A DNA stretch of 64,000 nucleotides from Charina bottae (taxonomy: Eukaryota; Chordata; Lepidosauria; Squamata; Charinaidae). Each line of letters starts with the position of its first letter. Within the stretch, counting starts at the first letter, position 1. The notes below the pieces were generated by a model. The model searched no databases. It saw only the letters and a list, made by a program, of their open reading frames with translations, and was not told the DNA's origin. The translations under genes were made by a program, and so were the position numbers. Shown here piece after piece: positions 3,686-63,640 of the stretch. Where the stretch lies: contig JALMGJ010000006.1 in NCBI GenBank assembly GCA_023362775.1, forward strand, positions 13,402,501-13,466,500, in the 5' to 3' direction.

Positions 3686-5367
3686 TGTGCAAAGATGGGC
3701 ATGATAAAGGACAAAAAAGGCAGGGACCTAACAGAAGCAGAAGAGATTAAGAAGAGGTGGCAAGAATACACAGAAGAACTATACAAGAAAGATCTTAATA
3801 TCCCTGATAAATACGATGGTGTGGTCACTGACCTTGAGCCGGACATCCTAGAGAGTGAAGTCAAGTGGGCCTTAGGAAGCATTACTAACAACAAAGCTAG
3901 CGGAGAAGACAGTATCCCAGCTGAGCTATTTAAAATCCTAAAAGATGATGCTGTTAAAGTGCTGCACTCAATATGCCAACAAATTTGGAAAACTCAACAG
4001 TGGCCACAGGATTGGAAAAGGTCAGTTTACGTTCCAATTCCAAAGAAAGGCAATGCCAAAGAATGTTCAAACTACCGTACAATTGCGCTCATTTCACATG
4101 CCAGCAAGGTTATGCTCAAAATCCTACAAGCTAGGCTTCAGCAGCATGTGAACCGAGAACTACCAGAAGTGCAAGCTGGGTTTCAAAGAGGCAGAGGAAC
4201 TAGAGATCAGATTGCCAACATTCGCTGGATCATGGAAAAAGCAAGAGAGTTCCAGAAAAACATCTACTTCTGCTTCATTGACTACGCTAAAGCCTTTGAT
4301 TGTGTGGATCACAACAAACTGTGGCAAATTCTTAAAGAGATGGGAGTACCAGACCACCTTACCTGTCTCCTGAGAAACCTGTATGTGGGTCAAGAAGCAA
4401 CAGTTAGAACCGGACATGGAACAACCGACTGGTTCAAAATTGGGAAAGGAGTACGACAAGGCTGTATATTATCACCCTGCTTATTTAACTTATATGCAGA
4501 GTACATCATGAGAAATGCCGGGCTGGATGAATCACAAGCCGGAGTTAAGATTGCCGGGAGAAATATCAACAACCTCAGATATGCAGACGATACCACCCTA
4601 ATGGCAGAAAGTGAAGAGGAACTAAAGAGCCTCTTGATGAGGGTGAAAGAGGAGAGTGCAAAAGCTGGCTTGAAACTCAACATTAAAAAAACCCAGATCA
4701 TGGCATCTGGTCCCATCACTTCCTGGCAAATAGAAGGGGAAGAAATGGAAGCAGTGACAGATTTTATTTTCTTGGGCTCCAAGATCACCGCAGACGGTGA
4801 CTGCAGCCATGAAATTAAAAGACGCTTGCTCCTTGGAAGGAAAGCTATGGCAAACCTAGACAGCATATTAAAAAGCAGAGACATCACCTTGCCGACAAAG
4901 GTCCGTATAGTTAAAGCTATGGTTTTTCCAGTAGCAATGTATGGCTGTGAGAGTTGGACCATAAGGAAGGCTGAGCGCCGAAGAATTGATGCCTTTGAGC
5001 TGTGGTGCTGGAGAAGACTCTTGAGAGTCCCTTGGACTGCAAGGAGGTCAAACCAGTCAATCCTAAAGGAAATCAACCCTGACTGCTCATTGGAAGGACA
5101 GATGCTGAAGCTGAAGCTCAAATACTTTGGCCACCTAATGAGAAGAGAGGACTCACTGGAAAAGACCCTGATGCTGGGAAAGACTGAGGGCAAAAGGAGA
5201 AGGGGACGGCAGAGGATGAGATGGTTAGATAGCATCACCGATGTAATGAACATGAATTTGAGTAAACTCCGAGAGACAGTGGAGGACAGGAAGGCCTGGC
5301 GTGCTATGGTCCATGAGGTCACGAAGAGTCGGACACGACTGAACGACTGAACAACAACAACAACAAC
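3686..5367 (+). mobile_element. 5'-truncated RTE-BovB LINE
   Basis: The insert is flanked by an 11-bp direct repeat acagctacctt at 3675-3685 and 5368-5378, so both junctions are defined. It starts inside the ORF (GCAAAGATGGGCATG) and ends with the BovB-type tail of repeated ACA triplets. The endonuclease half is absent, as expected from aborted reverse transcription. About eight non-templated bases sit at the 5' junction. Confidence 0.92.
3695..5350 (+). CDS. RTE-BovB reverse transcriptase, N-terminally truncated but open
   Basis: This 551-codon frame has no stop or shift. It begins just before the reverse-transcriptase fingers (IPIPKKG, NYRTIALISHASK) and contains FIDYAKAFDCVDH, GVRQGCILSP and the catalytic RYADDTTLMAE, then the long C-terminal RTE domain ending KSRTRLND. 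The protein copies LINE RNA into DNA at the target site. Because the apurinic endonuclease domain is missing, this copy cannot mobilise itself. The ATG used is an internal Met. The intact frame suggests a recent insertion. BovB is known for horizontal spread between squamates and ruminants. Confidence 0.9.
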   Translation: MGMIKDKKGRDLTEAEEIKKRWQEYTEELYKKDLNIPDKYDGVVTDLEPDILESEVKWALGSITNNKASGEDSIPAELFKILKDDAVKVLHSICQQIWKTQQWPQDWKRSVYVPIPKKGNAKECSNYRTIALISHASKVMLKILQARLQQHVNRELPEVQAGFQRGRGTRDQIANIRWIMEKAREFQKNIYFCFIDYAKAFDCVDHNKLWQILKEMGVPDHLTCLLRNLYVGQEATVRTGHGTTDWFKIGKGVRQGCILSPCLFNLYAEYIMRNAGLDESQAGVKIAGRNINNLRYADDTTLMAESEEELKSLLMRVKEESAKAGLKLNIKKTQIMASGPITSWQIEGEEMEAVTDFIFLGSKITADGDCSHEIKRRLLLGRKAMANLDSILKSRDITLPTKVRIVKAMVFPVAMYGCESWTIRKAERRRIDAFELWCWRRLLRVPWTARRSNQSILKEINPDCSLEGQMLKLKLKYFGHLMRREDSLEKTLMLGKTEGKRRRGRQRMRWLDSITDVMNMNLSKLRETVEDRKAWRAMVHEVTKSRTRLND

Positions 5368-10998: not shown

Positions 10999-11151
10999 GT
11001 TTCTGATTATCCTCTGATATTGTCTCTGGAGAATCATTGTAGTCCTAAGCAGCAGGAAGTTATGGTGGATTATCTAAGAACTATTCTGGGTGACCAGCTG
11101 ATTACATTTACAATAGATAAGACCATGCCAACTGAATTACCTTCTCCTGAG
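10999..11151 (+). CDS. PLCZ1: PLCZ1 exon: end of X domain
   Basis: Acceptor atttccag, donor CCTGAG|gtaaca, in phase zero at both ends (51 codons). It encodes [19 protein letters not shown], which contains the Glu that ligands catalytic calcium, then a conserved helix and TELPSPE leading into the linker. Confidence 0.95.
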
Positions 11152-11236
11152 GTAACAATTTTTTTTAAAAAAAAATGTAATTGGCATGGATATTTCTTGA
11201 GAAATGCATGATATAAAACATTGCTATACCTTAGTT

Positions 11237-11660
11237 CAGAGCTTTCCAAACTTTTCATGTTGGTGACACACTTTTTAGACATGCATCATTTCGCGACACA
11301 CTCTTACAGCAGGGCATCATTTTGCAACACACTCTTACAGCAGGGCACAAGGCAAGCACTAGGACCTGTGTGGAATCACAACTGGTTTGGAGGCAGCAAG
11401 GCACAAGGCAGGCACTAGGACCTGCGCGGAAGCTAGGAGGCAGCAGCAGCCGCGACACACCCAGACACTGCAGCCGATACACTAACGCAGAGCTTTCCAA
11501 ACTGTGTGTCGCGACACCCAGGTGTGTTGCAGGGGAACCCGGAAGAGGAGGCCATGCACCATGTGGAGCCCCGCCCATCCCTTGCCGTGCCGACAGGTCC
11601 CTGCTCTGAACCCAGCTCTTCAGCTCTCGCCGCAGAAGCTGGGGCCGAGCTGAGGGAGCC
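11237..11660. mobile_element. Nested hAT-like fragments with tandem repeats
   Basis: Two copies of a hAT-type start, CAGAGCTTTCCAAACT, occur at 11237 and 11488. They are followed by GTGACACAC and GTGTGTCGCGACAC motifs typical of one widespread reptile hAT MITE. Between them lie short tandem units around ACACACTCTTACAGCAGGGC and GCAGGCACTAGGACC. No matching right end or 8-bp duplication could be found, so the copies are truncated or rearranged. Confidence 0.5.
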
Positions 11661-11727
11661 TGCCGGCGGCTCCGGACTGACGAGAGGGCTCCCGGTGTTC
11701 CGGGGAGACCCAGCGCGGGTGGCGGGG

Positions 11728-11827
11728 ATGGGGCAGAAGCAGAAGGAGAGGAGCCGCTGGCGGGAGCTTGGCACGAGGAGCGCCTTGCCGGCGCCTGCCT
11801 GGCTTCCACCGCGCTTCATCGGAGAAG
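11728..11827 (+). pseudogene. Possible captured first exon, left-arm copy (unknown gene)
   Basis: An ATG opens a frame starting MGQKQKERSR that runs to a consensus donor GGAGAAG|GTAAGA exactly 100 bp later. The other arm carries the same ATG, length and donor. The gene of origin is not recognised. The conserved frame and donor in both arms suggest a copied 5' exon, but CpG-rich DNA can mimic this by chance. Confidence 0.35.
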
Positions 11828-12411
11828 GTAAGACGGGCGGGAAGCTGATAAGCCATCAAGGATCGATCAGGCCCGGGGGCAGGGCTGGCCGAGGGGCTCG
11901 GGGGGAAGAAGGGTCCCTGTTGCCTGAGACATCCTCACGCATCCTTCCCCCCCACAATATGGCAGCAATAACAGGCAGGGCCCGAAAGAGAAGGAAAGCC
12001 CCAAGAAAGAGCGGGGATCCTGCACTTTCCACTCTCCAGAAGAGCGTCCCACACTTGGATCCATTTCTGCCAGAGCTTTTGCGGCAGGTGGTGGTCGCTG
12101 TGGTTGTTATTGCTGCCATCTTGCGGGGGGAGGGGGGAAGGATGCGTGAGGATGTCTCGGGCAACAGGGACCCATCTTCCCTCTTCCCCCCCGAGCCCCT
12201 TGGCCAGCCCTGCCCCCGAGCCTGATCGATCCTTGATCGATGGCTGAACAGCTGGGCTTGGAGCGCCCGCTGGACGGAGCGATGTCGAGTCCCCCACCGC
12301 TCCATCCGGCCCCAGCAGCTCTGGGAAGGATGGTTGGACGAGCCTGCTGCAGGCGACCCCCTGCCCGCCCGCCCGCCTCTTAGCCACCCGCCCGCTGGCG
12401 TGGCGTCTTAC

Positions 12412-12511
12412 CTTCTCCGACAAAGTGCAGTGGAAGCTGGGCAGGCGCCAGCGAGGCACTCCTCGTGCTGCGCTCCTGCCGGCGGCTCCTCTCCTTCTGC
12501 TTCTGCCCCAT
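12412..12511 (-). pseudogene. Possible captured first exon, right-arm copy (unknown gene)
   Basis: Reverse-complement partner of 11728-11827. It also starts MGQKQKERSR, has the same 100-bp length without indels and the same GGAGAAG|GTAAGA donor. Several residues differ between arms, so the arms have diverged since duplication. The origin is unknown. Confidence 0.35.
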
Positions 12512-12594
12512 CCCCACCGCCCGCGCTGGGTCTCCCCGGAGCGCCGGGTCTCCCCGGAGCGCCGGGAGCCCTCTCATTGGGCCAGAGCCGCTGG

Positions 12595-13283
12595 ATGTCC
12601 TTTTCTTCTCTTTGCTTCTACCTTTCCCAGTATTAGAGCCTTTTCCAGAGAGCTGGGTCTTCACATAATGTGTCCAAAGTAGGATTATTTGAGCCTGGTC
12701 ATTTGTGTCTCAAATGAGAACTCTTGGTTGCTTTGTTTGATGATCCATCAATTTGTTTTCTTGGCTGTCCACACCATTCTCAGGAGTCTTCTCCAACATC
12801 AAAATTCAAAGGTGTCAATACTTTTCCTATCCTGTTTCTTCAAAGTCCAACTTTTGCTTCTATAGAGTGTCACAGGGAATACCATGGCTTTCTGATCTTT
12901 GTAAGTATAGACGCATCACAACATTTGAATAACTTTACCAAGGCCTTCATGACTGCTCTACCAAGTGCTAGTCTTTGGTGTATTTCCTGTATGCTTGTTC
13001 CTTTACTGTTGATGGTTGATCCTAAAAGGCAGAAGCTATCCAGCACTTCTATATCTTCATTGTCAATTCTAAGGCTGGTTGTTCTACATGTTGTCATTAA
13101 TTTGGTCGTCTTTATATTAAATTTTAGTCCCATTTTTTCACTGTGCTCTTTGACTTAGTACTAGGGCTTGCAGATACTTTGCATTTTTGGCTATCAGGGT
13201 AGTGTCATCAGCACAGCACAGCACAGCACAGCACAGGTTATTGATGTTTCTTCCTCCACTTTTAAAACCATGCTTATCTGTTA
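12595..13283 (-). mobile_element. Degenerate RTE LINE fragment
   Basis: The minus-strand translation gives RTE C-terminal blocks in order: near 13210-13260 GGRNINNL and ADDTTLIAKN (YADD region), then MGLKFNIKTTK, LLGSTINSKG, LALGRAVMKAL, and near 12620-12690 SYFGHIM and LEKALILGKVEAKRR. A CAGCA pentamer run (13214-13238) splits the catalytic motif. The large hAT element is inserted at its right edge (8-bp copy at 13284-13291). Confidence 0.7.
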
Positions 13284-13374
13284 CTCTATCCCAAGGGTCG
13301 GAAATGGCGGCTCGCGAGCCAGATGCGGCTCTTTGGCCCCTTGAGTGTGGCTCTTCCGCAGCTGAACTCACCCC

Positions 13375-13425
13375 CGCCCCTTCCACGTGATTGACCCCCG
13401 CCCGCAAACCCCGCCCCCTGGCTCT
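13375..13425. repeat. Subterminal unit of the hAT element, left side
   Basis: One copy of the unit CCACGTGATTG.CCCCCGCCCGCAAACCCCGCCCC followed by TGGCTCTCG. The same unit in the same orientation is tandemly repeated near the right end of the element (17010-17125). Confidence 0.75.
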
Positions 13426-13560
13426 CGCACTGAGCGAGGCCCGGCGCGGCAGGGAGGCGCTGCTGGCCCGGGACGCGGCGCTGTCGGAGGCGGCGCAGGA
13501 GCGGCTGCAGGGGCTGCCGCGGCTGGAGATGGCGCTGCTCCGCGGCATCCAGGTGCTGGG
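13426..13560 (+). pseudogene. Unrecognised coding-like segment found only on the left side
   Basis: The plus frame reads REALLARDAALSEAAQERL and then GLPRLEMALLRGIQVLGE, an amphipathic helix-like peptide with regular Leu and Ala spacing. It lies outside the inverted arm, so it is a separate segment of unknown origin. It could be a third captured exon or a chance frame in GC-rich DNA. Confidence 0.3.
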
Positions 13561-14013
13561 CGAGGGCGCGGGCCCGGGACGCGAGCGGCAGGGTGGCGCA
13601 GGGCGAAGAGCAGCCTGCTCTCCCCTTGGCCGCCTCCGGTCCGAGCCTGGCTCAGTTCCCCCAGCCGCCGCAGGGTTCGGGTTAGCGGGGGGGGGAGAGG
13701 ACGCCGAACGGCGGGGTGGGGGGATTGATGGGGCAGGAGGGTGCACCCGCTGGCTGGCTGGCTTTCTTCCACCGCCCGCTCTGCACAGGAGCGGAGCGCA
13801 CTGCCAAATCACATCCGCGCCCACCCCTGCCCTTTTCCGAATACCCCCCTCCGATCCTTGGAAGGCGAGGCCCTGGTGGTGTAGGGGGGGGGTGAGGAGG
13901 ATTCTCAGTCGGGAGGGAGAAATCCCCGGGTCTGCGGAGGGCTTTCCGCGCTGCCTTGAGGCGCGCGTGGGCGCCCAGAGCAGGGGAGGAACGGGGAGCG
14001 CCAGGGGACTCAC

Positions 14014-14088
14014 CCACTGCTGCTCGGCTGCCACCTTCCTCCTCCGCTTCAGCCGCCCGCCCGCCGAGTCCCGGCCCTTCAGCCCCCG
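14014..14088 (-). pseudogene. WDR46: Captured WDR46 exon (basic C-terminal segment), left arm
   Basis: The 75-bp exon has acceptor CCCCCAG and donor GTGAGT. It encodes RGLKGRDSAGGRLKRRRKV..., matching the KGRSS...KRKRKV segment near the WDR46 C-terminus. Compared with the right arm, the last codon is TGG instead of CGG. WDR46 is a nucleolar small-subunit processome protein. Confidence 0.65.
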
Positions 14089-14216
14089 CTGGGGGGAGGG
14101 GGGAAGGGACTCAGCGCCCGCACGCCCGGAGCCCGGCAGAGCTGCGTCTCGCCCCGCCCCGCCCTCCCAGAGTGGCCAGCGGAGCGCCACCGGCGCCCAC
14201 CTGCTCGGGCAGGTAC

Positions 14217-14315
14217 CAGCCTCTCTGCATGCTCCTTCCGCTGCTGCTGCTGCAGGGAGACGGCGTCCACCCGGCCCAGCTGCCCGGGGTCCAGGGAGAT
14301 CAGCTCCGGCGGGAT
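14217..14315 (-). pseudogene. WDR46: Captured WDR46 exon (PPELISLDP segment), left arm
   Basis: This is the reverse-complement partner of 16451-16549, with the same 33-codon frame and GTACC donor. It encodes IPPELISLDPGQLGRVDAVS..., resembling [20 protein letters not shown] of WDR46 from memory of the family. Confidence 0.7.
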
Positions 14316-14787
14316 CTTTGGCGAAGAGCGGCCGTGGGGGGGGGACGAGGCAGGCGGCGACAAGCGGCACGAGGCGGGAGGCAAGCGGGTGGGGCGGAGG
14401 ACGCGTTTCTCTTCCTTCCCCCTCTTTAAAGCGGCTTACCTGGGCTTTGGGTTCCCACACCCAGCTCCCACAAACCCGCCACCGCAGCAGCGCAAACCCA
14501 CTTCTTCCTTCCTGCTCCACTGGGTGCCAAGCCCGGGCGATTCTCCTGCCGATTTGATCAAAGCGGGGCGGGGGGGTAGGGGTTGGTGAGTAGAAGCACT
14601 GGGTAGACCCGCGCGCGTGCGCGCACACCTTTGGAGAAAAATAATCGGCAAGGGATTCACGCCGAAGTTTTTTAAATCTCCCCCCACCACCCAAACACAC
14701 GCGTGCGCATACACACACCCTCCTCCCCCTCTCCCTCCCTCCCTTTCTCTCATAACCAACCCCCCATACACACACACACACACACAC

Positions 14788-15990
14788 GTTAGGAGACCGC
14801 CCACCGCACAACTAAGACCCCATTCGATTTAAAGAGAGACTGCATTCAGAGGCTGACATTCATTCAATAGATAGAGCGATCATAAGCAGGCTGTGCGACG
14901 GGCGTGCTCGCCCTTTCTTCCCCTGTTCTGGTTCCTGCCACTCGGGTTGCGCTCGTCTCTTTCGCTGGAGGGAAATAACTTAAGGATGTTAAATCAGAGA
15001 ATCTTTCCGGGCATGGTTTTATTCCTGATGTTTTTCTGCCACTTCATAGAAGATCAAACAGCGCAGGGCAAGATACAATTCACACCTTTCCCTGCCGACG
15101 TGCCTCTGTCTCTCTCTGTCTGTCACTCTACCCCTCCCACTCCAGGGTTCTTCTTCAGTCCACCCGACGCCCGCAAAGCTCCAGCCCTAAACTCAAATAG
15201 GGCTTCCCACTGAACTCCCGGGGGCTTCCGCTTGAAAGAAGAAACCCACTTAGGATCGCTTTGCGCGGGGGGCATTTTGTGGATGCGGAGGCAGGAGAGC
15301 AGGGCAACCCATGTTTGGCACCGAATTCGCTGGGCAGAGAATCCCTCTCCTCGCCAGCTTTATCATCTTAACCGCCTTCTCCATCATTAGCTCTCAAGGG
15401 CTTTTTAAAAAGCTTGTGTCGCTGCTGCCTGGCTAAACTTCCAGCATCAGCTAAGAACTTTTCCGAGTTTGGCCACTGCGGAGGTCTCACCCTGCGTGTG
15501 ATTTATCCACGTATTTACATTTCTAAAATCACTGAGCCCGCTTCCTTCTACGGGTGCAAAATAATCTTCGGATTATGCCTCACACTTCCGGGCGCGGGTG
15601 GGGGAGAGAGAAAGAGAGAAGGAAGGAGACTTTAAGTTTGGAGAATTTTCTTTGTGCTCCTGCTTGTCCTCCTCCAGTTTCATGCCATTCTGGGAAGGAA
15701 CTTCGGAGGGCTGCCTTTCACAGTTGCAAAGCATGCCTTGCAACACCAATCTAGACTAGCCGTTCCAGACGAAATAAGTCTCCCCTTCAGTGCAGTGGAA
15801 CTTGCTTCCAGGTAAGCGAGTGAAAGATCGCACCCCTGAGCTTCGTTTAAAGCACAGTAAACGAAACTCAAATATTGGCAACTGAAAAAAGTCTCCTCCA
15901 CCCCGACATTGGTTTGCAATGTCCCTCCCTCGCGGAGGGAGGCAAACAGGCAGGCAAGTGGGGGGGGCGGCCCGGGCCTCCTCCTCCTCC
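14788..15990. other. Spacer of the fold-back hAT
   Basis: Unique sequence of about 1.2 kb between the arms. It has a promoter/5' UTR-like and exon 1 segment resembling FST, followed by sequence that could be FST intron 1. A further donor-like CTTCCAG|GTAAGC occurs at about 15807-15816. The GC content drops compared with the arms. The rest is unassigned. Confidence 0.6.
14986..15067 (+). pseudogene. FST: Captured follistatin exon 1 (signal peptide)
   Basis: An ATG in good context (taaggATG) opens MLNQRIFPGM followed by a hydrophobic run VLFLMFFCHF and EDQTAQ. As I recall the family, bird follistatin starts MLNQRI.PGM and its signal peptide ends ED.TAQ, just before the exon 1 boundary in phase 1. 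Here the frame meets CAGG|GCAAGA, a GC-type donor in the same phase. No later FST exon (AGNCWLRQ...) is present anywhere in the window, so this is a copied fragment and not the FST gene. About 100 bp upstream looks like its 5' UTR. Confidence 0.75.
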
Positions 15991-16450
15991 TGTGTGTGTG
16001 TGTATGGGGGGGTTGGTTATGAGAGAAAGGGAGGGAGGGAGGGGGAGGGTGTATGCGCGCGTGTGTGTTCGGGTGGTGGTGGGAGATTTAAAAAACTTCG
16101 GTGTGAATCCCTTGCCGATTATTTTTCTCCAAAGGTGTGCGCGCATGCGCGCGGGTCTACCCAGTGCTTCTACTCACCAACCCCTACCCCCCCCGCCCCG
16201 CTTTGATCAAATCGGCAGGAGAATCGCCCGGGCTTGGCACCCAGTGGAGCAGGAAGGAAGAAGTGGGTTTGCGCTGCTGCGGTGGCGGGTTTGTGGGAGC
16301 TGGGTGTGGGAACCCAAAGCCCAGGTGAGCCGCTTTAAAGAGGGGGAAGGAAGAGAAACGCGTCCTCCGCCCTACCCGCTTGCCTCCCGCCTCGTGCCGC
16401 TTGTCGCCGCCTGCCTCGTCCCCCCCCCCCACGGCCGCTCTTCGCCAAAG

Positions 16451-16549
16451 ATCCCGCCGGAGCTGATCTCCCTGGACCCCGGGCAGCTGGGCCGGGTGGA
16501 CGCCGTCTCCCTGCAGCAGCAGCAGCGGAAGGAGCGTGCAGAGAGGCTG
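16451..16549 (+). pseudogene. WDR46: Captured WDR46 exon (PPELISLDP segment), right arm
   Basis: The exon encodes IPPELISLDPGQLGRVDAVS then LQQQQRKERAERL and ends at CTG|GTACC. Residue pattern and exon end agree with the WDR46 region after the WD-repeat propeller (AELICLDP..., EQIERL). Upstream, KIPP is preceded by a C-rich tract that may serve as the acceptor. No propeller exons accompany it, so it is a 3' fragment. Confidence 0.7.
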
Positions 16550-16677
16550 GTACCTGCCTGAGCAGGTGGGCGCCGGTGGCGCTCCGCTGGCCACTCTGGG
16601 AGGGCGGGGCGGGGCGAGACGCAGCTCTGCTGGGCTCCGGGCGTGCAGGCGCTGAGTCCCTGCCCCCCTCCCCCCAG

Positions 16678-16752
16678 CGGGGGCTGAAGGGCCGGGACTC
16701 GGCGGGCGGGCGGCTGAAGCGGAGGAGGAAGGTGGCAGCCGAGCAGCAGCGG
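16678..16752 (+). pseudogene. WDR46: Captured WDR46 exon (KRRRKV segment), right arm
   Basis: Acceptor cccccag, donor CGG|gtgagt, 25 codons in one frame: RGLKGRDSAGGRLKRRRKVA then AEQQR. The lysine/arginine-rich block corresponds to the basic tail of WDR46 before its last exon. Confidence 0.7.
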
Positions 16753-16815
16753 GTGAGTCCCCTGGCGCTCCCCGTTCCTCCCCTGCCCCGGCTCCGCCCT
16801 GGCTCCTTGGTTCAG

Positions 16816-16960
16816 AACAGCTTGGCTGCCGAGGCAGAGGCGCAGCCGGCGCCCTCCGAAGCTGGAGCCCCCGCAGCCCGCAGATCGGCGCTGGATCACT
16901 TCCGGAAATGGGGGGAAAGGCCGGCCGCCTTCTGCAGGCAAGGAGGGAGGGGCGGGAAGC
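16816..16960 (+). pseudogene. WDR46: Captured WDR46 last exon, right side only
   Basis: The acceptor is ccttggttcag and the phase continues from the previous exon. The peptide is NSLAAEAEAQ... then RRSALDHFRK, matching the WDR46 ending (ARPSALDRFVR in human, as recalled). Here the frame reads on past the expected stop (KWGERPAAF...), so the native terminus is lost or altered. No copy of this exon exists in the left arm. Confidence 0.7.
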
Positions 16961-17009
16961 CGGTGGGGGGGGAAACTGCTACATGGGCCCTCCCACGCAC
17001 CCCAATAAG

Positions 17010-17125
17010 CCACGTGATTGGCCCCGCCCGCAAACCCCGCCCCCTTCCACGTGATTGGCCCCCGCCCGCAAACCCCGCCCCCTTCCACGCGATTGGCCCC
17101 CGCCCGCAAACCCCGCCCCCTGGCT
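17010..17125. repeat. Three subterminal tandem units of the hAT element
   Basis: Unit of about 37 bp: CCACGTGATTGGCCCC followed by CGCCCGCAAACCCCGCCCCCTT, in three near-identical copies, the last with CCACGCGATT. The reverse complement of this unit forms the core of the 26.2-kb MITE. Subterminal repeats are commonly bound by hAT transposases. Confidence 0.85.
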
Positions 17126-17242
17126 CTCGAGCACTTCAAAATGTGCACGAGCATATCAAAATGGCTCCCGGCAAAAAAAGTTTGCCGACCCCTGCTCTAT
17201 CCAATAAGGTTGAAAGAGTAGGGGGAATCTAAGAGTAATCCA

Positions 17243-18646: not shown

Positions 18647-20905
18647 GTATGTATGTGAAATTAAGTTTTCAAACAAAAATAGATCTTTCTTAATTGAATA
18701 ATTCACATTTGAAGATCTTTCTTGATCCTCAAAGATTAGAAAAGTTCTGCCTCAAAGGAAGATTAGTCAGCTTCAAAGTTCGTTTATATGATGGATGTGC
18801 AGTTATAAACCATGCATTAGTATTTATTTCAATTAGGTTTGCTATTTTTCATTTACCAGAGCTGATGCAACTTGCTTCTCTTAGGGCTATGAGCAGAGAG
18901 ATGTATGAAGAAGAATGTGAAGGTCAAGAAATGTTGGAAAGTTTGTATGTTCAGCATTGCTTAGTGATGAACTAATTTCAGGAATTAATAATAATAATTT
19001 CACTTTGGATCCCAGATATACAGCTTATTCTGTTCTGCATGTCTGCTGTCTTTTAAGTTCAAGGCCTTTTAGTGTACACCTAGCTTTGTATAAAATACCT
19101 CAGAATATATTAGTGGTGATTAAGTATTTGTGCTTTCTAAACCATTTAAGGTTATAGCAAGATGATTGTTGGGCTTTAATTGATTCCAGGCTTTTTTTGA
19201 TGGAATGGATTGAGAGTGTAATTTGGAAAATTGAATTCAAATAGATCCATTCTCATGGTCTAACCTTCTTCTGTACTCTAAGCTGAAGTCTATGGGGCAT
19301 TCAGGTCAGGCATGGCAAGAATTTAGGTCACACAGGAAGTTGTCAGAACCACAGGTAGCTCACTGTGTAGTTGGATACACAGATAGAGAAGACTCTTAAG
19401 TGAGCACAGAGTGTTATTTTGTCCCTTGTTTAGAGACAGACCAAGGGTGTAAGAAATCCTGGATGTATATGAAATAGCACTGGGTTGAAATATTCAGCTC
19501 AGCTTTTTTATTCATATTTGAGGCATGGGTGGTAATTTTTCACATATTGTAGAACTGGATAAATTGTGGGGTGAGGGATAGTTAGCATAAAGTAATGGAT
19601 AACTTTTTTCTTTTAAAACTGAATAATTGAAGCTGCTGTTTACATCATTGTTTGTTTTGCTGATAGTTAAAAAAAGCCTTCCTTATTGTAAAATAAGTAG
19701 CCCTCCTGCAGGTCATGAAGCCCTCCTCCTCCCCTGCCTCCAGCATTCTTTCCCCACCCTTGTGGGAAATGACTGTCAGGTGGAGTAGAGGTTGGGAAGG
19801 AGGAAGAATGCTCAACTATCATGTGAAGCCCCATTTCTTTGAAGAGAGCGTGTTTAGCAGTTAAAGGATCTTCAGGAGAGGGAGCCAAAATTCTCTGTAA
19901 TGAAACTCAAGTTGCAGTGGGTGGGAGTTCCTTGCATTAGAATTTTGCAGAGATGCAGAGCTACTCCTAAGGATCAGAACATTGGGGCCTCCATGTCCCG
20001 TTTAGCGGGATAGCTCTTCAGGCAAATGATTACTGTGGTAGCAGAGAAACCAAATCCTCGGAGTCCAAAGAGCCCTTTGTCATGGTAGATACAAATATTA
20101 CTCCATCTTTTCCAACATGCTCTGTTTGGAGTGCTTGGATATAACTCCAGCTGAAGCTACCTGCCATCAACTGCCACTGCTGAGACTGCAGAGGGAGAGG
20201 AAAAAGCAGCCCACAGTGCTTAGTTTCAGCACAGTGATCATCTGAACACTTTAACCAGAGCTCACATTTGCTTCTTTCTTTCTCCTCTCAGGCTCTTCAT
20301 TTGTATCATGCATTTGAGATTGTAAACCTGTGAACAGGCATTTTATTTGAGAACTTTGGAAGGTACTTCAGGATCTTTTTTAGGTTGAAGATTGGGGTAA
20401 AAATGCTCTAAATAAACAATAACACACACTTTTGTACACACATACATATGTGGCATTTTAATAACCTATCAACACGTTTTTGGGGCCAGTATTATAATGT
20501 CAGTATTATTGGTGGGGAAATTGAGAGACAGGACTTGCCTAATGCCACCCAGTCAAACAACTGAGATGAATTTTGAACTGGGATTTTCTGGCTCACAGCT
20601 GATGCGCTAAACCACTGTGTTACATACTACTATACATTTACTAATTCTTTATATTTTCAGTGATAAACCATTCCATTCCTTCCTTAGCATGAAGGGCCCC
20701 CATGAAGATTTGCAGAACTCTATATAGATAGTGGAAACTGGTATTATGTAGTATTAAAGAACTAGATTAGGAGTTGGGAGATGGTAGTTCAGATCGTCAT
20801 TAAATCACAAAGTCCATTGGGTCGGTCACTATCTCTGGGCAGTTGTAAGAAAAAGGAAGAGAATGATATAACTGCCCATATATACTATGTATGTATGTAT
20901 GTAAA
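18647..20905. other. PLCZ1 intron, mostly unassigned
   Basis: No exon was recognised. Near 20470-20640 a stretch (ccagtattataatgtcagtat... ctgatgcgctaaaccactgtg) may be an old SINE remnant. A TATG run precedes the BovB copy. Confidence 0.4.
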
Positions 20906-22018
20906 GCAAGAGAGTTCCAGAAAAACATCTACTTCTGCTTCATTGACTACGCTAAAGCCTTTGATTGTGTGGATCACAACAAACTGTGGCAAATTCTTAA
21001 AGAGATGGGAGTACCAGACCACCTTACCTGTCTCCTGAGAAACCTGTATGCGGGTCAAGAAGCAACAGTTAGAACCGGACTGGAATGACCGATTGGTTCA
21101 AAATTGGGAAAGGAGTACGACAAGGCTGTATATTATCACTGTGCTTATTTAACTTATATGCAGAGTACATCATGAGAAATGCCGGACTGGATGAATCACA
21201 AGCCGGAGTTAAGATTGCCGGGAGAAATATCAACAACCTCAGATATGCAGATGATACCACCCTAATGGCAGAAAGTGAAGAGGAACTAAAGAGCCTCTTG
21301 ATGAGGGTGAAAGAGGAGAGTGCAAAAGCTGGCTTGAAACTCAACATTAAAAAAACTCAGATCATGGCATCTGGTCCCATCACTTCCTGGCAAATAGAAG
21401 GGGAAGAAATGGAAGCAGTGACAGATTTTATTTTCTTGGGCTCCGAGATCACCACAGATGGTGACTGCAGCCATGAAATTAAAAGACGCTTGCTCCTTGG
21501 GAGGAAAGCTATGGCAAACCTAGACAGCATATTAAAAAGCAGAGACATCACCTTGCCGACAAAGGTCCATGTAATTAAAGCTATGGTTTTCCCAGTAGTA
21601 ATGTATGGCTGTGAGAGTTGGACCATAAGGAAGACTGAGCGCTGAAGAATTGATGGTTCCAAACTGTGGTGCTGGAGAAGACTCTTAAGACTCCCTTGGA
21701 CTGCAAGGAGGTCAAATCAGTCAATCCTAAAGGAAATCAACCCTGACTGCTCATTGGAAGGACAGATACTGAAGCAGAAGCTCAAATACTTTGGCCACCT
21801 AATGCGAAGAGAGGACTCACTGGAAAAGACCCTGATGCTGGGAAAGACTGAAGGCAAAAGGAGAAGGGGACGGCAGAGGATGAGATGGTTAGATAGCATT
21901 ACCAACGTAATGAACATGAATTTGAGTAAACTCCGGGAGACAGTGGAGGACAGGAAGGCCTGGCGTGCTATGGTCCATGAGGTCACGAAGAGTTGGACAT
22001 GATTAAACGACACAACAA
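20906..22018 (+). mobile_element. 5'-truncated, broken RTE-BovB copy
   Basis: The copy starts at GCAAGAGAGTTCCAG within the RT domain and ends with ACAACAACAACA. It has the FIDYAKAFDCVDH, GVRQGC and RYADDTTLMAE blocks, but a 2-bp loss near 21080 and a stop near 21644 split the frame. It is nearly identical in sequence to the copy at 3.7 kb. Confidence 0.9.
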
Positions 22019-22027
22019 CAACAACAT

Positions 22028-22043
22028 TATCTATCTATCATCC

Positions 22044-25534: not shown

Positions 25535-25752
25535 TTGACTCACTGGAAAAGACCCTGATGCTGGGAAAGACTGAAGGCCAAAGGAGAAGGGGATGGCAGA
25601 GGATGAGATGGTTAGATAGCATCACTGATGTAATGAACATGAATTTGAGTAAACTCCGGGAGACAGTGGAGGACAGGAAGGCCTGGTGTGCTATGGTCCA
25701 TGAGGTCACGAAGAGTCGGACACGACTAAACGACTGAACAACAACAACAAAA
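25535..25752 (+). mobile_element. Short RTE-BovB 3' fragment
   Basis: About 200 bp of the BovB C-terminal region (DSLEKTLMLGKTEG to KSRTRLND) and the ACA tail. Severe 5' truncation. Confidence 0.85.
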
Positions 25753-26195
25753 AGTTGCAGGAAACCTATATTCCATGAGCTATGTAGAACCTAACTAGCT
25801 TTTTTGTTGTTGTTGTTATTTTAGAAGCCCATCTCCTCATCAGTGATAAACAGAGTCCATTTTTAAGCAGAACATAAAAGCACATAAATAATCTTTTAGA
25901 CTTAACTCACACCCCAAAAATCAACATAACCCCAAACTGGCCTCCAGGAAATCTTGGCTTATTCTTGCTTATATGATGTCACAATTTACAGCCTTTGATT
26001 GTCTCCGTTTCCTTACCTGTGACCTATTTATCAGCTTTTTGTAAAACTAGTACTTGAATAAATCCCCCTACCTAGATGCAAAAATGGTTAGAATCATTTA
26101 AACAAAATATTGTAAAGAGATGCAATTGCTCGCAGATTTTTGTAGCATCAGTGTGTGCCACTTATGCTGTCATAAAGGCTCTCAGTCTTTTAGGG

Positions 26196-26467
26196 CAGTG
26201 GTCCCCAACCTTTTTGGCACCAGGGACCAAAAAAAAAAAAAAAAGAAGACAATTTTTCAACGGACCAGGGGGGCGCGGTTTGCAGGCGGGAGCCAATCGT
26301 GTACACCGGGGGGGGTGAGGTTTGCAGGCGGGAGCCAATCGCGCGCACCAGGGGGCGGGGTTTGCAGGCGGGAGCTAATCGCGTGCACCGGGGGTGGGGT
26401 AGTCGCGCACACTGGGGGACGGGGTTTGTAGGTGTGAGCCCCGCGGCCCACAGGTTGGGGACCCCTG
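26196..26467. mobile_element. Non-autonomous hAT (272 bp) with internal tandem units
   Basis: Ends are CAGTGGTCCCCAACC and ...GGTTGGGGACCCCTG. The flanks ttttaggg at 26188-26195 and 26468-26475 are an exact 8-bp duplication. The core holds about four units around GGGGTTTGCAGGCGGGAGCC, the reverse complement of the subterminal unit of the 13.3-17.2 kb element. It is inserted in a LINE 3' tail region. Confidence 0.9.
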
Positions 26468-26559
26468 TTTTAGGGGGAAATTGCTGCTTCACCACTGTAG
26501 ACCACTGTCAACCCCGCCATGTAGACCAGACCAAGAAATCAACTTGGCTGAGTATGCTC

Positions 26560-31057: not shown

Positions 31058-33816
31058 AGAGATGTCAAGATTAAATATAGACATTTTAGGTGTCAGTGAA
31101 CTGAAATGGACTGGGATGGGCCACTTCACATCAGATGACCACCAGATCTACTACTGTGGACAAGAGGACCACAGAAGAAATGGAGTAGCCTTCATAATTA
31201 ATAATAAAGTGGCTAAAGCAGTGCTTGGATACAATCCAAAAAATGATAGAATGATCTCAATTCGAATTCAGGGTAAGCCATTTAACATCACAGTGATCCA
31301 AATACACGCCCCAACCACAGATGCTGAAGAAGCAGAAGTAGATCAGTTCTATGAGGATCTGCAGCACCTACTAGATAATACACCAAAAAGAGATGTTATT
31401 TTCATTACAGGAGACTGGAACGCTAAGGTGGGTAGTCAGACACCTGGAATTACAGGCAAGCATGGTCTGGGAGAACAAAATGAAGCAGGACATAGGCTGA
31501 TAGAATTTTGCCAAGACAACTCACTGTGCATAACAAACACTCTCTTCCAACAACCTAAAAGACGACTTTATACATGGACTTCACCAGATGGTCGACACCG
31601 AAATCAGATTGACTACATCCTTTGCAGCCAAAGGTGGCGGACATCTATACAGTCGGTAAAAACAAGACCTGGAGCTGACTGTAGTTCAGATCACAAACTT
31701 CTTATTGCAAAATTTAGAATCAGACTAAAGAGAATAGGGAAGACCCACAGATCAGTTAGATATGAGCTCACTAATATTCCTAAGGAATATGCAGTGGAGG
31801 TGAAGAATAGATTTAAGGGACTAGATTTAGTAGATAGGGTCCCAGAAGAACTATGGACAGAAGTTCGCAACATTGTTCAGGAGGCGGCAACAAAAAACGT
31901 CCCAAAGAAAAAGAAAACCAAGAAGGCAAGATGGCTGTCTGCTGAAACACTGGAAGTAGCCCAAGAAAGAAGGAAAGCAAAAGGCAACAGTGATAGGGGG
32001 AGATATGCCCAATTAAATGCAAAATTCCAGAGGTTAGCCAGAAGAGATAAGGAATTATTTTTAAACAAGCAATGTGCGGAAGTGGAAGAAGACAATAGAA
32101 TAGGAAGGACAAGAGACCTCTTCCAGAAAATTAGAAACATCGGAGGTAAATTCCAGGCAAAAATGGGTATGATCAAAAACAAAGATGGTAAGGACCTAAC
32201 AGAAGCAGAAGAGATCAAGAAAAGGTGGCAAGAATATACGGAAGATCTGTATAGGAAGGATAATAATATTGGAGATAGCTTTGACGGTGTGGTCAGTGAG
32301 TTAGAGCCAGACATCCTGAAGAGTGAGGTTGAATGGGCCTTAAGAAGCATTGCTAATAACAAGGCAGCAGGAGACGACGGTATCCCAGCTGAACTGTTTA
32401 AAATCTTGCAAGATGATGCTGTCAAGGTGATGCATGCCATATGCCAGCAAATTTGGAAAACACAAGAATGGCCATCAGATTGGAAAAAATCAACTTATAT
32501 CCCCATACCAAAAAAGGGAAGCACTAAAGAATGTTCAAACTATCGAACAGTGGCACTTATTTCACATGCCAGTAAGGTAATGCTCAAGATCTTGCAAGGT
32601 AGACTCCAGCAATTCATGGAGCGAGAATTGCCAGATGTACAAGCTGGGTTTAGAAAAGGCAGAGGAACTAGAGACCAAATTGCCAATATCCGCTGGATAA
32701 TGGAGAAAGCCAGGGAATTTCAGAAAAACATCTATTTCTGTTTTATTGACTATTCTAAAACCTTTGACTGTGTGGATCATAACAAATGGTGGCAAGTTCT
32801 TGGTGGTATGGGGATACCAAGTCATCTTGTCTGCCTCCTGAGGAATCTGTATAACGACCAAGTAGCAACGGTAAGAACAGAGCACGGAACAACGGACTGG
32901 TTTAAGATTGGGAAAGGAGTACGGCAGGGTTGTATACTCTCACCCTACCTATTCAACCTGTACGCAGAACACATCATGCGACATGCTGGGCTTGAGGAAT
33001 CCAAGGCTGGAGTTAAAATCGCTGGAAGAAACATGAACAATCTCAGATATGCAGATGATACCACTTTCATGGCTGAAAGCGAGGAGGAGTTGAGGAGCCT
33101 TATGACGAAGGTGAAAGAAGAAAGTGCAAAAGCTGGGTTGCAGTTAAACCTCAAAAAAACCAAGATTATGGAAACCAGCTTAATCGATAACTGGCAAATA
33201 GAGGGAGAAAAAGTGGAGGCAGTGACAGACTTTGTATTTCTAGGCGCAAAGATTACTGCAGACGCTGACTGCAGCCAGGAAATCAGAAGACGTCTACTTC
33301 TTGGGAGGAGAGCAATGGCAAATCTTGATAGATAGTTAAGAGCAGAGACATCACACTGACAACAAAGGTCCGCATAGTTAAAGCAATGGTATTCCCTGTA
33401 GTAACCTATGGCTGCGAGAGCTGGACCTTAAGGAAGGCTGAGCGAAGGAAGATAGATGCTTTTGAACTGTGGTGTTGGAGGAATATTCTGAGAGTGCCTT
33501 GGACTGCAAGAAGATCAAACCAGTCCATACTCCAGGAAATCAAGCCAGACTGCTCACTTGAGGGAATGATATTAAAGGCAAAACTGAAGTACTTTGGCCA
33601 CATAATGAGAAGACAGGATACCCTGGAGAAGAAGCTGATGCTAGGGAAAGTGGAAGGCAAAAGAAAGAGGGGCCGACCAAGGGCAAGATGGATGGATGGT
33701 ATTCTGGAGGTGACGGACTCAACCATTGGGGAGCTGGGGATGGTGACGGCCGACAGAAAGCTCTGGCGTGGACTGGTCCATGAAGTCACGAAAAGTCGGA
33801 AACGACTGAACGAATA

Positions 33817-33825
<9 letters not shown>
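31058..33825 (+). mobile_element. Near-complete RTE LINE (BovB relative, second subfamily)
   Basis: Contains both endonuclease and RT. Endonuclease motifs: ILGVSELKWTG, IHAPTTDAEE, TGDWNAKVGS, NQIDYILCSQRW, CSSDHKLL. RT motifs: PIPKKGS, NYRTVALISHASK, DYSKTFDCVDH, GVRQGCILSP, RYADDTTFMAE. The 757-codon frame 31062-33335 is followed, after a single 1-bp loss near 33331, by the C-terminal frame 33386-33817 ending KSRKRLNE. It differs clearly from the BovB copies, so it is a separate subfamily. The 3' end is ACAACAA then an AT run. Confidence 0.9.

Positions 33826-33872
<47 letters not shown>
33826..33872. repeat. (AT)n microsatellite at the junction of two LINEs
   Basis: Pure AT dinucleotide run between the 3' tail of the plus-strand RTE and the 3' tail of the minus-strand BovB. 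Confidence 0.95.
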
Positions 33873-33879
<7 letters not shown>

Positions 33880-34439
33880 CGGTCGTTTAGTCGTGTCCGA
33901 CTCTTCGTGACCTCATGGACCATAGCACGCCAGGCCTTCCTGTCCTCCACTGTCTCTCGGAGTTTACTCAAATTCAAGTTCATTACATCAGTGATGCTAT
34001 CTAACCATCTCATCCTCTGCCGTCCCCTTCTTTTTTTGCCTTCAGTCTTTCCCAGCATCAGGGTCTTTTCCAGTGAGTCCTCTCTTCGCATTAGGTGGCC
34101 GAAGTATTTGAGTTTCAGCTTCAGCATCTGTCCTTCCAATGAGCAGTCAGGGTTGATTTCCTTTAGGATTGACTGGTTTGACCTCCTTGCAGTCCAAGGG
34201 ACTCTCAAGAGTCTTCTCCAGCACCACAGCTCGAAAGCATCAATTCTTCGGCGCTCAGCCTTCCTTATGGTCCAACTCTCACAGCCATACATTACTACTG
34301 GAAAAACCATAGCTTTAACTATACGGACCTTTGTCGGCAAGGTGATGTCTCTGCTTTTTAATATGCTGTCTAGGTTTGCCATAGCTTTCCTCCCAAGGAG
34401 CAAGCGTCTTTTAATTTCATGGCTGCAGTCACCATCTGC
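33873..34439 (-). mobile_element. 5'-truncated RTE-BovB copy
   Basis: The minus frame gives DGDCSHEIKRRLLLGRKAM through KSRTRLND without a stop. The element is cut at its 5' side exactly where the TG run begins (CCATCTGCG|TGTG). It lies tail-to-tail with the preceding RTE. Confidence 0.9.
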
Positions 34440-34443
34440 GTGT

Positions 34444-61629: not shown

Positions 61630-63640
61630 ATGGCACAATGAAGTGACTACCTTGCCAGAGAAATACTCAGACTTTGCAGATATATTTGGGGAAGAAGAGG
61701 CAACTGTGATGCCTCCCAATCGAGCATATGATTGTACCATCAATTTGAAGCCAGGAGCCCAGATTCCCACAAAGAGGCAGTATCCCATGTCTACTCATGT
61801 GTTTGCCACTCTGAAAGAATATGTGGATGTCAGCGTAAGAAAAGGATTATTTGCTCTTCCAAATCCCAAGTATCCACACCATTTTTTATCCCCCAAAAGG
61901 ATGGCAAAATGGGGTGGGGGTAGGGGTAGGAAATAGGGACTGGTGGTGGTGGGTTGACAGGGACTGGCAGGGGGTGTCAAGAGTTCATGACTACAAAAAT
62001 CTGAACAAGGTGACTATTAGAGACCATTATCTGCTACCCCTTATTTCACATCTCCTACGCCATCTCCAAAAGGCATGCATTTTTACAAAATTGGACTTAA
62101 GAAGTGCTTCCAATTTGATCAGAATGAAGGAAGGACATGAATACTTAATCACATTTGATACAAGGTATGGCAAATGGATGAATCACAAGCAGGAGTTAAG
62201 ATTGCCGGGAGAAATATCAATAACCTCAGATATGCAGATGATACCACCCTAATGGCAAAAAGTGAAGAGGAACTAAAGAGCCTCTTGATGAGGGTGAAAG
62301 AGGAGAGTGCAAAAGCTGGCTTGAAACTCAACATTAAAAAAACTCAGATCATGGCATCTGGTCCCATCATTTCCTGGCAAATAGAAGGGAAAGAAATGGA
62401 AGCAGTGACAGATTTTATTTTCTTGGGCTCCAAGATCATGGCAGATGGTGACTGCAGCCATGAAATTAAAAGATGCTTGCTCCTTGGGAGGAAAGCTATG
62501 GCAAACCTAGACAGCATATTAAAAAGCAGAGACATCACCTTGCTGACAAAGGTCCGTATAGTTAAAGCTATGGTTTCCCAGTAGTAATGTATGGCTGTGA
62601 GAGTTGGACCATAAGGAAGGCTGAGCGCCAAAGAACTGATGCTTTCGAGCTGTGGTGCTGGAGAAGACTCTTAAGAGTCCCTTGGACTGCAAGGAGGTCA
62701 AATCAGTCAATCCTAAAGGAAATCAACCCTGACTGCTCATTGGAAGGACAGATACTGAAGCTGAAGCTCAAATACTTTGGCCACCTAATGCAAAGAGAGG
62801 ACTCACTGGAAAAGACCCTGATGCTGGGAAAGACTGAAGGCAAAAGGAGAAGGGGATGGCAGAGGATGAGATGGTTAGATAGCATCACTGATGTAACGAA
62901 CATGAATTTGAGTAAACTCCAGGAGACAGTGGAGGGCAGGAAGGCCTGGCGTGCTATGGTCCATGAGGTCACAAAGAGTCGGACATGACTAAACGACTGA
63001 ACAACAACAACAAAAATGGCAAATGGAATACACTGTGATGCCTTTTGGTTTGGTTAATTGTGGGGCTGTCTTATCTAGATTAATGAATGAAATATTTTTG
63101 GACAAGTATGTAGTGGTGTATTTAGATGACATATTGTTTTTTTCTGAGGATCCTTCCTGGAATGAGATGCATTTCAGTAACGTCTTAAAAAGGCTCCATG
63201 AACCCAAGCTTTTTGCCAAGTTAGAGAAGTATGCATTTGACCCCTCAATTAGACTACAGAATGAAGGCATACAGATGGATCCTACAAAGGTACAATCCAT
63301 GCTATCATGGTGCGCGCGCGCGCGCACACACACACACACAATATGAAAGATGTGCAACATTTTCTAGGCCTTGCTAACTTCTATCAGAAGTTCATTCCTA
63401 ATTTTGTAGATCACATAAAGCCACTTTCTCAGCTCCTAAAAAAGGGTCATCAATTCTTACGGTCTACTCAACAGCAAAAAACATCTCAAGAGTTGAAATA
63501 ACTCTTTGTTTCACAGCTGCTGTTCAAACACCTAGACCCTACCCACCAATTCATAGTACAGACTGATACTTCAGATGTGGCAGTAGGAGAAGTTCTCCAG
63601 GCAGGGGAGGAGGAGTGGGAGGACAGATTAGTTGCCTGGG
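61630..63640 (+). mobile_element. Broken Ty3/Gypsy pol fragment
   Basis: Plus-strand blocks in the order of Gypsy pol: FADIFGEEEATVMPPNRAYD and CTINLKPGAQIPTKRQYPM (before the RT), YKNLNKVTIRDHYLLPLI, FTKLDLRSA, then after the BovB insert MPFGLVN, YVVVYLDDILFFSED (catalytic core), and LGLANFYQKFIPNF, then an RNase H start (HLDPTHQFIVQTDTSD). Frameshifts, a (CG)(CA) microsatellite at 63312-63341 and the nested LINE break it. No LTRs, integrase or gag were seen. Confidence 0.8.
62179..63015 (+). mobile_element. RTE-BovB copy nested in Gypsy pol
   Basis: The insert is bounded by a 12-bp direct repeat atggcaaatgga (62167-62178 and 63016-63027). It starts in the RT palm (DESQAGVKIAGRNINN) and ends with the ACA tail. 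A 1-bp loss near 62578 shifts the frame at MVFPV. It carries RYADDTTLMAK. Confidence 0.9.

Follow-up and report, generated by a model that had tools for sequence, protein, structure and literature searches.

In one genome of the snake Charina bottae, a complete copy of a non-autonomous hAT transposon carrying DNA from several host genes occupies positions 13292-17194 of the analysed stretch of 64,000 nucleotides (hereafter the window). The features identified are given below in window coordinates, where L053 and L057 denote the parent loci of WDR46 and FST, and L049 to L052 and L054 to L056 denote other WDR46 carriers in the same genome.

13284..13291, no strand: left target-site duplication ctctatcc, exact match with 17195-17202
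13292..13427, + strand: left transposon end, terminal CAAGGGTCGG, followed by one ~38-bp GC-rich minisatellite unit at 13383-13419
13430..13597, + strand: 5' coding fragment of a SCAN-domain zinc-finger gene (LSEARRGREALLARDAALSEAAQERLQ...), from protein matches
13600..13641, + strand: 42-bp piece, 95% identity to a piece in the 2,289-bp carrier L049+L054
13980..14780, - strand: left arm of the palindrome, in which the 3' part of WDR46, inverted, adjoins sequence from upstream of FST
14390..15918, + strand: continuous FST piece running from ~600 bp before the ATG through exon 1 into ~850 bp of intron 1
14986..15067, + strand: FST exon 1 (signal peptide MLNQRIFPGMVLFLMFFCHFIEDQTAQ), peptide identical to snake follistatin P0001 at 26 of 27 residues
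15928..15990, + strand: GC-rich piece, 83-87% to the WDR46 carriers L049-L052
15991..16371, - strand: inverted copy of the FST upstream region, L057 positions 530 to 133, 93.7% identity
15991..16786, no strand: right arm of the palindrome, pairing with 13980..14780
16427..16927, + strand: WDR46 3' end, consisting of exon, intron, exon (partly lost), shortened intron and last exon (stop codon changed)
16927..16999, + strand: WDR46 downstream sequence from ~480 bp past the stop codon, 80.5% to L053 2198-2274
16988..17021, + strand: junction between the WDR46 piece and the right transposon end (34-letter pattern)
17010..17194, + strand: right transposon end, three minisatellite units, terminal ...GCCGACCCCTG
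17195..17202, no strand: right target-site duplication ctctatcc, exact match with 13284-13291

A first-pass annotation of the sequence had described an exact 8-bp flanking repeat, hAT-like inverted ends, a GC-rich interior and the absence of a transposase. The repeat was indeed exact, and both characteristics of the hAT superfamily, an 8-bp target duplication and short terminal inverted repeats, were present, with ends that we take to resemble those of hAT elements. The inverted match itself comprised 9 of 10 positions over about 10 bp only (CAAGGGTCGG and, reverse-complemented, CAGGGGTCGG), no extended terminal inverted repeat being found when longer stretches of both ends were aligned, and the description of the ends holds to that extent. 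The GC content of the element was 63.5%, while 1-kb bins elsewhere in the window mostly lie at 31-50%; the bins at 11001-13000 adjoining the element reach 55-56%, and a separate palindrome lies close by at 11652-12573. We also confirmed that, as in Pack-TIR and Pack-TYPE elements, a transposase of its own is absent: a Pfam search with five translated stretches returned no family above the cut-off, the sole match being a sub-threshold one to YdjM (E 0.11).

Captured gene fragments

The element contains fragments of at least three genes, namely the WDR46 and FST fragments that the first-pass annotation had recognised and that of a SCAN zinc-finger gene, which it had not counted. For WDR46, the peptides quoted as resembling the C-terminus were found in the translations, which matched human WDR46 in the PDB (E=5e-8) and Liasis WDR46 (P0028) at 72%. 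At the DNA level, 16427..16927 aligned to the parent in two blocks of 82-84% and 81-91% identity, depending on the alignment settings, and was without about 615 bp of the last intron present in the parent, while positions 13975-14339 in the left palindrome arm were 90-94% identical to the same locus. The likeness to follistatin exon 1 was borne out by the near-identity of its peptide to the snake protein, although a PDB search with this peptide alone gave no match, and the continuous FST piece aligned to its parent with 97.3% identity (1541 aligned bp, 30 mismatches, 12 gap positions). Exon 1 is followed by GC in 37 of 37 copies, in place of the splice donor GT of the parent. In the right palindrome arm, the inverted FST upstream copy lies innermost, and it starts at a (GT)n tract. 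The SCAN-gene fragment matched P0042 and P0043 (Liasis, SCAN) at 70%, P0046 (Naja) at 87% over 46 residues and four further proteins at 55-63%, with only three weak matches in the PDB (E 0.5-1.4); the SCAN domain proper (residues 357-430 of P0042) is absent from it.

Both parent genes are still in the genome, WDR46 on contig C110 and FST on contig C24, while the window is on C234, so that for both captured genes host DNA lies between transposon ends with the parent retained, the arrangement that distinguishes a Pack-TIR. Alignment of the element to these two loci, which had been proposed as a check, gave intron-level matches to both. Because introns were kept and, for FST, ~600 bp preceding the start codon came along, the capture took place at the DNA level, as had been suspected.

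Copies, target sites and palindrome

The other check proposed, a search for further full-length copies with the same ends, yielded at least 37 (26 of ~3.9 kb and 11 of ~4.37 kb), which are those scored among 3,848 first-look candidates. A perfect 8/8 target duplication flanked all 37, compared to 0/37 at a shifted control position, and these duplications, 35 of them distinct, were spread over 12 contigs; together with five other carriers (see below), 42 of 42 elements read had 8-bp target duplications. The terminal 14 bases were unchanged at the left end of 35 and the right end of 36 of the 37 full copies. The target pattern was nnCTAGnn, with T at position 4 in 37/37 and A at position 5 in 35/37, and by the consensus nnnTAnnn given for Buster elements in the available text of two reports (PMC3499496, PMC3517528) the element would be a hAT of the Buster type. 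Apart from the parent gene, FST exon 1 was found at no fewer than 75 places, with 118 of 137 candidates scored; 37 of these places were read, all 37 full-length copies read fall among them, and 26 of the 75 places have two inverted copies of the exon. The junction pattern between WDR46 and the transposon end (≤3 mismatches) occurred 995 times in the genome and its reversed control 0 times, a figure that counts occurrences of the pattern, the elements read being 42 and chosen non-randomly.

Copies differed from the majority sequence by 0.12-0.88% outside CpG and by 1.7-6.2% at CpG sites, with a mean pairwise divergence of 1.1-2.0% among full copies, and judging from these values the bursts of transposition appear to be recent. 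Neither the copy number nor the large inverted repeat had been noticed in the first-pass annotation. The palindrome arms (801 and 796 bp) matched at 778 positions, with 14 mismatches and 5 gaps. The same change was seen in both arms 48 times, compared to 13.7 (sd 3.3, maximum 26) for arms paired across copies in 500 shuffles uncorrected for the relatedness of copies, which suggests that the arms convert each other. The inverted run of FST sequence in the 4.37-kb form extends from parent position 530 to 426 and then restarts from 867 to 130, which looks like slipped re-copying. The 105-bp direct repeats of this form would permit deletion to the 3.9-kb form; the two polarisable diagnostic sites point in opposite directions as to which form is older, and we dropped the 4.37-kb form as a necessary ancestor of the 3.9-kb form, the point differences being contradictory.

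Order of captures and origin of the chimera

Among the five other carriers, each with an 8/8 target duplication, L051 (1,141 bp), L052 (1,470 bp) and L056 (1,487 bp) carry WDR46 and lack an inverted repeat, while L049+L054 (2,289 bp) and L050+L055 (2,754 bp) have WDR46 together with extra pieces and inverted repeats. Across the latter two, the extra pieces are from a SCAN gene and, weakly, BCL2L10-like; the BCL2L10-like piece of the 2,289-bp carrier, which presumably resembles chicken NR-13, had a single weak PDB match (E=0.36). The inverted repeat of the 2,289-bp carrier is one ~294-bp palindrome (arms of ~147 bp, 86%), that of the 2,754-bp carrier consists of separate inverted arms of ~258 bp (97.7%). 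The window copy and all five carriers share an identical right-end junction and, when compared with the WDR46 parent, an identical pair of gaps, and the junction is the stronger evidence because the gaps could partly be later insertions in the parent. As all carrier structures read have one WDR46-transposon junction, a single WDR46 event is indicated, and since WDR46-only carriers are without inverted repeats whereas multi-piece carriers have them, WDR46 would have been taken up first, in a single older event, with more captures, palindromes and recent bursts coming afterwards. The FST step would be younger because FST is much nearer its parent (97.3%) than is WDR46, whose gene blocks in L051, L052 and L056 reach 88-94%. 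CpG decay may inflate this age gap.

Very probably, 13292-17194 is thus a copy of a multicopy non-autonomous hAT of Buster type, i.e. a Pack-hAT, with serially captured WDR46, FST and SCAN-gene DNA, presumably mobilised in trans. WDR46 would have been captured once, before everything else, and FST and the other pieces acquired later, presumably by copying through template switches while an element was being replicated or repaired. Such switches may also have produced the palindromes, and a transposase acting in trans would then have spread the chimeras. Each FST-bearing copy could serve as a portable upstream region and signal-peptide exon, its splice donor being GC.

An alternative source of such a structure is gap filling at a single locus, where a fixed hAT copy is broken in place and filled with nearby gene DNA, and the chimera never transposes. 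This is how Tan et al. account for most single-copy animal Pack-TIRs in the accessible part of their survey (PMC8277862), and a variant of it may have created the first chimera. For the family as a whole it is refuted by the copies, 37 of 37 with their own perfect duplication, most of them distinct and on 12 contigs, and with the parents on contigs other than that of the window it is highly improbable here. Retroposition, i.e. exon capture via RNA, can claim the presence of exons and nothing more; against the introns kept in WDR46 and an FST piece that is mostly upstream sequence and intron 1, we give it next to no credence. It is almost as improbable that the palindrome is an assembly artefact: near-identical inverted arms are difficult to assemble, but the arm matches recur in full-length copies on 12 contigs, and these copies fall into two distinct size classes, differ individually and are flanked by target duplications that match.

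How the pieces were joined is less clear-cut. As against copying with template switches, the ligation of broken DNA by end joining (filler DNA) is a serious though rather unlikely competitor. Several junctions have little or no shared sequence, and the WDR46 gaps could be such joins. However, both parents still occupy their own loci, which makes the captured pieces copies, and the interrupted and restarted FST run of the 4.37-kb form also speaks against joining. Read by eye for the microhomology that characterises FoSTeST-type multicopy Pack-TIRs, the junction borders share few bases or none at all, or have a (GT)n tract, and for this reason template switching is proposed here with caution. 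That the captured exons are functional new genes under selection is improbable. The FST signal-peptide frame is open in 37/37 copies and identical in 31, which does not imply selection because the copies are too young. Moreover, some copies have disrupted WDR46 and SCAN frames (6 and 3 of the 37, respectively, being left out as the exact anchor was absent), the window copy carries an altered WDR46 stop codon, and FST has a GC donor in place of GT. A search for chimeric proteins in other species, with one chimeric frame against proteins (7,981 best candidates), matched four proteins, all relatives of the SCAN gene, over only 11-14% of its length.

Going beyond template switching as such, we tentatively suggest, while considering it somewhat doubtful, that this hAT lineage is a serial collector of genes, in which fold-back template switching would add a gene piece and a palindrome together, the arms would interconvert and the FST branch would spread its exon. 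If so, an FST upstream region, signal-peptide exon and splice donor would be placed at dozens of sites (on both strands in the longer form), and the FST-bearing branch would be a ready supply of new secreted fusion proteins.

Relation to known gene-capturing transposons

Multi-gene and intron-retaining captures are familiar from plant Pack-type elements. The first-pass annotation had regarded the element as an animal analogue of these, which stands insofar as host gene DNA lies within a transposon, but it is not new as a kind, animal Pack-TIRs having been surveyed by Tan et al. in 2021 (PMC8277862). As described in the available text, plant Pack-MULEs and Pack-TYPE elements are likewise DNA transposons of the non-autonomous kind, by which coding DNA is captured and shuffled in plants (PMC8903248). 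In the accessible portion of the animal survey, 370 Pack-TIRs are listed, 208 of them hAT; multicopy cases are rare (four), tend towards GC-richness and include one example with three copies and another with five, and hAT-N8_XT has a 291-bp piece of the CAPSL 5' UTR on three chromosomes (PMC8277862). These Pack-TIRs and Pack-hATs share with the snake element the TIR-transposon ends and target duplication around copied host DNA. The snake family goes beyond them in its 37 full copies, its FST exon 1 at 75 or more places and its 995 WDR46 junctions, and in having three or more genes within a single element, a large palindrome and serial capture across subfamilies. Because of its three or more gene fragments, large palindrome and large family, the element is more than a two-gene Pack element, and the family is a much larger, serially capturing and palindromic variant of the known animal type.

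Among individual systems, and as far as the consulted text of each source extends, Ssk-FB4 of Drosophila is similar in being multicopy with a captured gene and long inverted repeats, and is explained as template switching followed by transposition (FoSTeST), but it carries a single gene, has four copies of which one is a tandem duplicate, is flanked by target duplications of 9-10 bp and is assigned to MULE (PMC8277862). Turmoil-1 of C. elegans is a DNA transposon with long inverted repeats and two unrelated gene fragments; it differs in belonging to the Harbinger superfamily, encoding its own transposase and having one full copy and eight fragments, with gene pieces of 205 and 131 bp (PMC2572040). 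Mar MITEs and TcBuster share the Buster target consensus nnnTAnnn, whereas host gene capture is not described in the available parts of the respective papers (PMC3517528, PMC3499496). Among the matches listed in our literature search, which covered mainly openly accessible papers, there was no Pack-hAT family bearing WDR46 or FST, or of comparable size, a scope that falls short of proving absence.

The origin of multicopy Pack elements is debated. Because a single genome has simple carriers and multi-gene palindromic derivatives, clean duplications at 42 of 42 elements and two parents in place, it allows a direct reading of the sequence in which captures occurred, of how capture is linked to inverted duplication and of how young the bursts are. 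In the snake genome, the spread of the transposon has dispersed gene fragments and a signal-peptide exon, which suggests that a vertebrate DNA transposon may multiply gene pieces, including a secretion-signal exon with its upstream sequence, far past the few copies reported in the accessible text of the animal survey (PMC8277862).

Gene pieces and structure of the element

The element is a chimera: its WDR46 and FST pieces are copies of parent genes that persist at their own loci, and such chimeras then transposed. Its main parts and the parent genes are as follows.

13292-17194: whole element, 3,903 bp, flanked by exact ctctatcc on each side
13430-13597: SCAN gene piece, coding, 70% identity to the N-terminal part of two Liasis SCAN-domain proteins
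13980-14780 and 15991-16786: arms of a large interior palindrome (778 matches, 14 mismatches, 5 gaps)
14390-15918: continuous FST piece, 97.3% identity to the FST parent DNA (L057) over 1,541 aligned bases
15991-16371: second FST piece, inverted, 93.7% identity to L057
C110:591687-595218: parent WDR46 gene, covered from residue 152 on
C24:10879198-10896913 of the searched genome (G000): parent FST gene, whole protein covered in order
C24:10896830-10896913: parent FST exon 1, from a protein search of the genome

The first-pass annotation was right about the identical 8-bp flanking repeat. Its inverted ends hold for the short termini (CAAGGGTCGG at the left; CAGGGGTCGG at the right when inverted) and not for the sequence inward of them, where both ends carry, in one shared orientation, a minisatellite of ~38 bp, with one unit at the left end and three at the right. 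The WDR46 origin with introns was confirmed, the match to the parent gene extending over three exons, the final one included, and the two introns between them; relative to the parent, two stretches are missing from the piece, ~615 bp within the last intron and ~480 bp downstream of the stop codon. The hand-spliced WDR46 peptide matched human WDR46 in the PDB (E = 5e-8) and Liasis olivaceus WDR46 at 72% (77/107 aligned positions, one query residue supplied by hand). The database proteins closest to the element's peptides are from snakes, with Liasis and Python leading for WDR46, which points to a snake host. The left, inverted arm of the palindrome contains the WDR46 piece again, minus the last exon.

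The proposed FST origin was likewise borne out, as the continuous piece runs from ~600 bp upstream of the ATG through exon 1 to ~850 bp inside intron 1. Exon 1 codes for MLNQRIFPGMVLFLMFFCHFIEDQTAQ, of which 26 of 27 residues agree with a snake follistatin (P0001, named Protobothrops mucrosquamatus), and is followed by GC in 37/37 copies versus the donor GT in the parent. A third fragment, the SCAN gene piece, was absent from the original two-gene description; over 46 residues, its peptide shows 87% identity to a putative Naja zinc-finger protein.

The gene pieces were probably added by template switching while DNA was being replicated or repaired, along the lines of the FoSTeST model (Tan et al., PMC8277862), and fold-back copying would have made the palindromes; microhomology at the piece junctions is slight. 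In the window copy, 12 of the 14 arm-to-arm mismatches are transitions and 10 are at CpG. Because the same change occurs in both arms of single copies 48 times versus 13.7 expected (shuffled pairing; inherited changes counted repeatedly), the data suggest that the arms convert each other. Overall, the first-pass annotation was right on fact and largely right on meaning: this kind of element is already known in animals, and its scale, gene number, palindrome and readable capture order make it a marked variant of that kind.

Copies, target sites and the two forms

A search of the 1.80-Gb assembly, which placed the window at C234:13402501-13466500, found the further full-length copies that had been proposed as a check: at least 26 (the window's counted) and at least 11 of a longer form (37 scored of 3,848 first-look candidates). 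All 37 were read and each has its own matching 8-bp target duplication (35 distinct), while moving the test by ten bases gave 0/37. The target motif nnCTAGnn fits the Buster consensus nnnTAnnn (PMC3499496, PMC3517528). Beside the insertion, the flanks of copies L009, L024 and L034 are 92-94% alike over 110-214 bp and those of L028 and L042 88% over 236 bp, with targets alike in both sets. Since each set has a shorter and a longer form and its flanks diverge more than the elements, we read these as probably independent insertions whose target sites lay in copies of the same repeat family. Copies diverge from the majority sequence by 0.12-0.88% at non-CpG positions and by 1.7-6.2% at CpG ones, and this low divergence makes the burst a recent one.

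With 118 of 137 candidates scored, the protein search saw FST exon 1 at least 102 times at at least 76 loci, parent among them, and two inverted exon-1 copies 1,152-1,165 bp apart at 26 of the 75 non-parent loci. All 37 read copies fall among those 75 (sequence read at 37/75). The junction at which WDR46 meets the right transposon end was counted 995 times at up to three mismatches, and the reversed pattern 0 times; a listed junction at zero mismatches adjoins, by eye, 9 of 12 WDR46 matches on C1, C24 and C35. Its 20-base core is exact in 34 of the 37 read copies.

In the longer form (4,368-4,385 bp) the arms are ~1,150 bp long and each carries FST exon 1, in opposite orientations; in FST parent coordinates this form reads forward 130-1670, inverted 530-426, inverted 867-130. 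Deletion between its 105-bp direct repeats could have given the shorter form, or slipped re-copying of the shorter form could have given the longer. The longer copies form one clade; two of six form-diagnostic sites are comparable with the WDR46 parent and the simple carriers, and these point opposite ways.

Other carriers and the order of captures

Five other WDR46-bearing carriers of the same transposon were read, all with 8/8 target duplications.

L051, 1,141 bp; L052, 1,470 bp; L056, 1,487 bp: simple carriers with transposon ends, GC-rich piece and WDR46
L049+L054, 2,289 bp: extra BCL2L10-like coding start (weak match), palindromes of ~294 and ~128 bp
L050+L055, 2,754 bp: extra piece coding for RWAVKLDKPPDLERFRAQLSEA, inverted arms of ~258 bp at 97.7%

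WDR46 was most likely captured in a single event, because the window copy and all five of these carriers share the right junction as well as the two WDR46 gaps. FST was probably captured later, since it is 97.3% identical to its parent versus 88-94% for the WDR46 gene blocks of the simple carriers (downstream piece 81-91%). Self-comparison found no inverted repeat in the simple carriers; inverted repeats were found in the gene-adding ones, and in this small set (five carriers and two FST-element forms) the cases in which added genes go with inverted repeats are too few for a rule. Besides its arms, L050+L055 has several palindromic stretches, and by eye its RWAVKLDKPPDLERFRAQLSEA piece appears to continue the SCAN gene upstream. 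Short repeats of a ~40-bp motif, GCTCCAAAAAGACCGGCGCGGGGCCTCGCTCAGCTGCG, some direct and others inverted, also crowd this carrier; the motif overlaps the SCAN-gene-like piece.

Neighbouring sequences

A phosphatidylinositol phospholipase C X-domain exon lies at 10999-11154 (Pfam E = 6e-14), and the element may therefore be intronic to a PLC gene. A second GC-rich inverted repeat at 11490-12594 (gapped arms 11652-11973 and 12105-12573) adjoins another hAT-like end (CAGAGCTTTCCAAACTG...) and is possibly another gene-capturing element. Both of its arms have a start codon and a GTAAGA donor, together with an open frame (MGQKQKERSR...) for whose peptide a protein search returned no relatives. A short hAT-like element with CAGTGGTCCCCAACC ends lies at 26199-26471; its GC-rich minisatellite resembles that of the Pack-hAT. 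Repeat copies in both orientations at 3689-5366, 20903-22038, 25537-25753, 32157-34440 and 62068-63016, many pairs of which are 93-99% identical and others 65-79%, are perhaps a young retroelement family.
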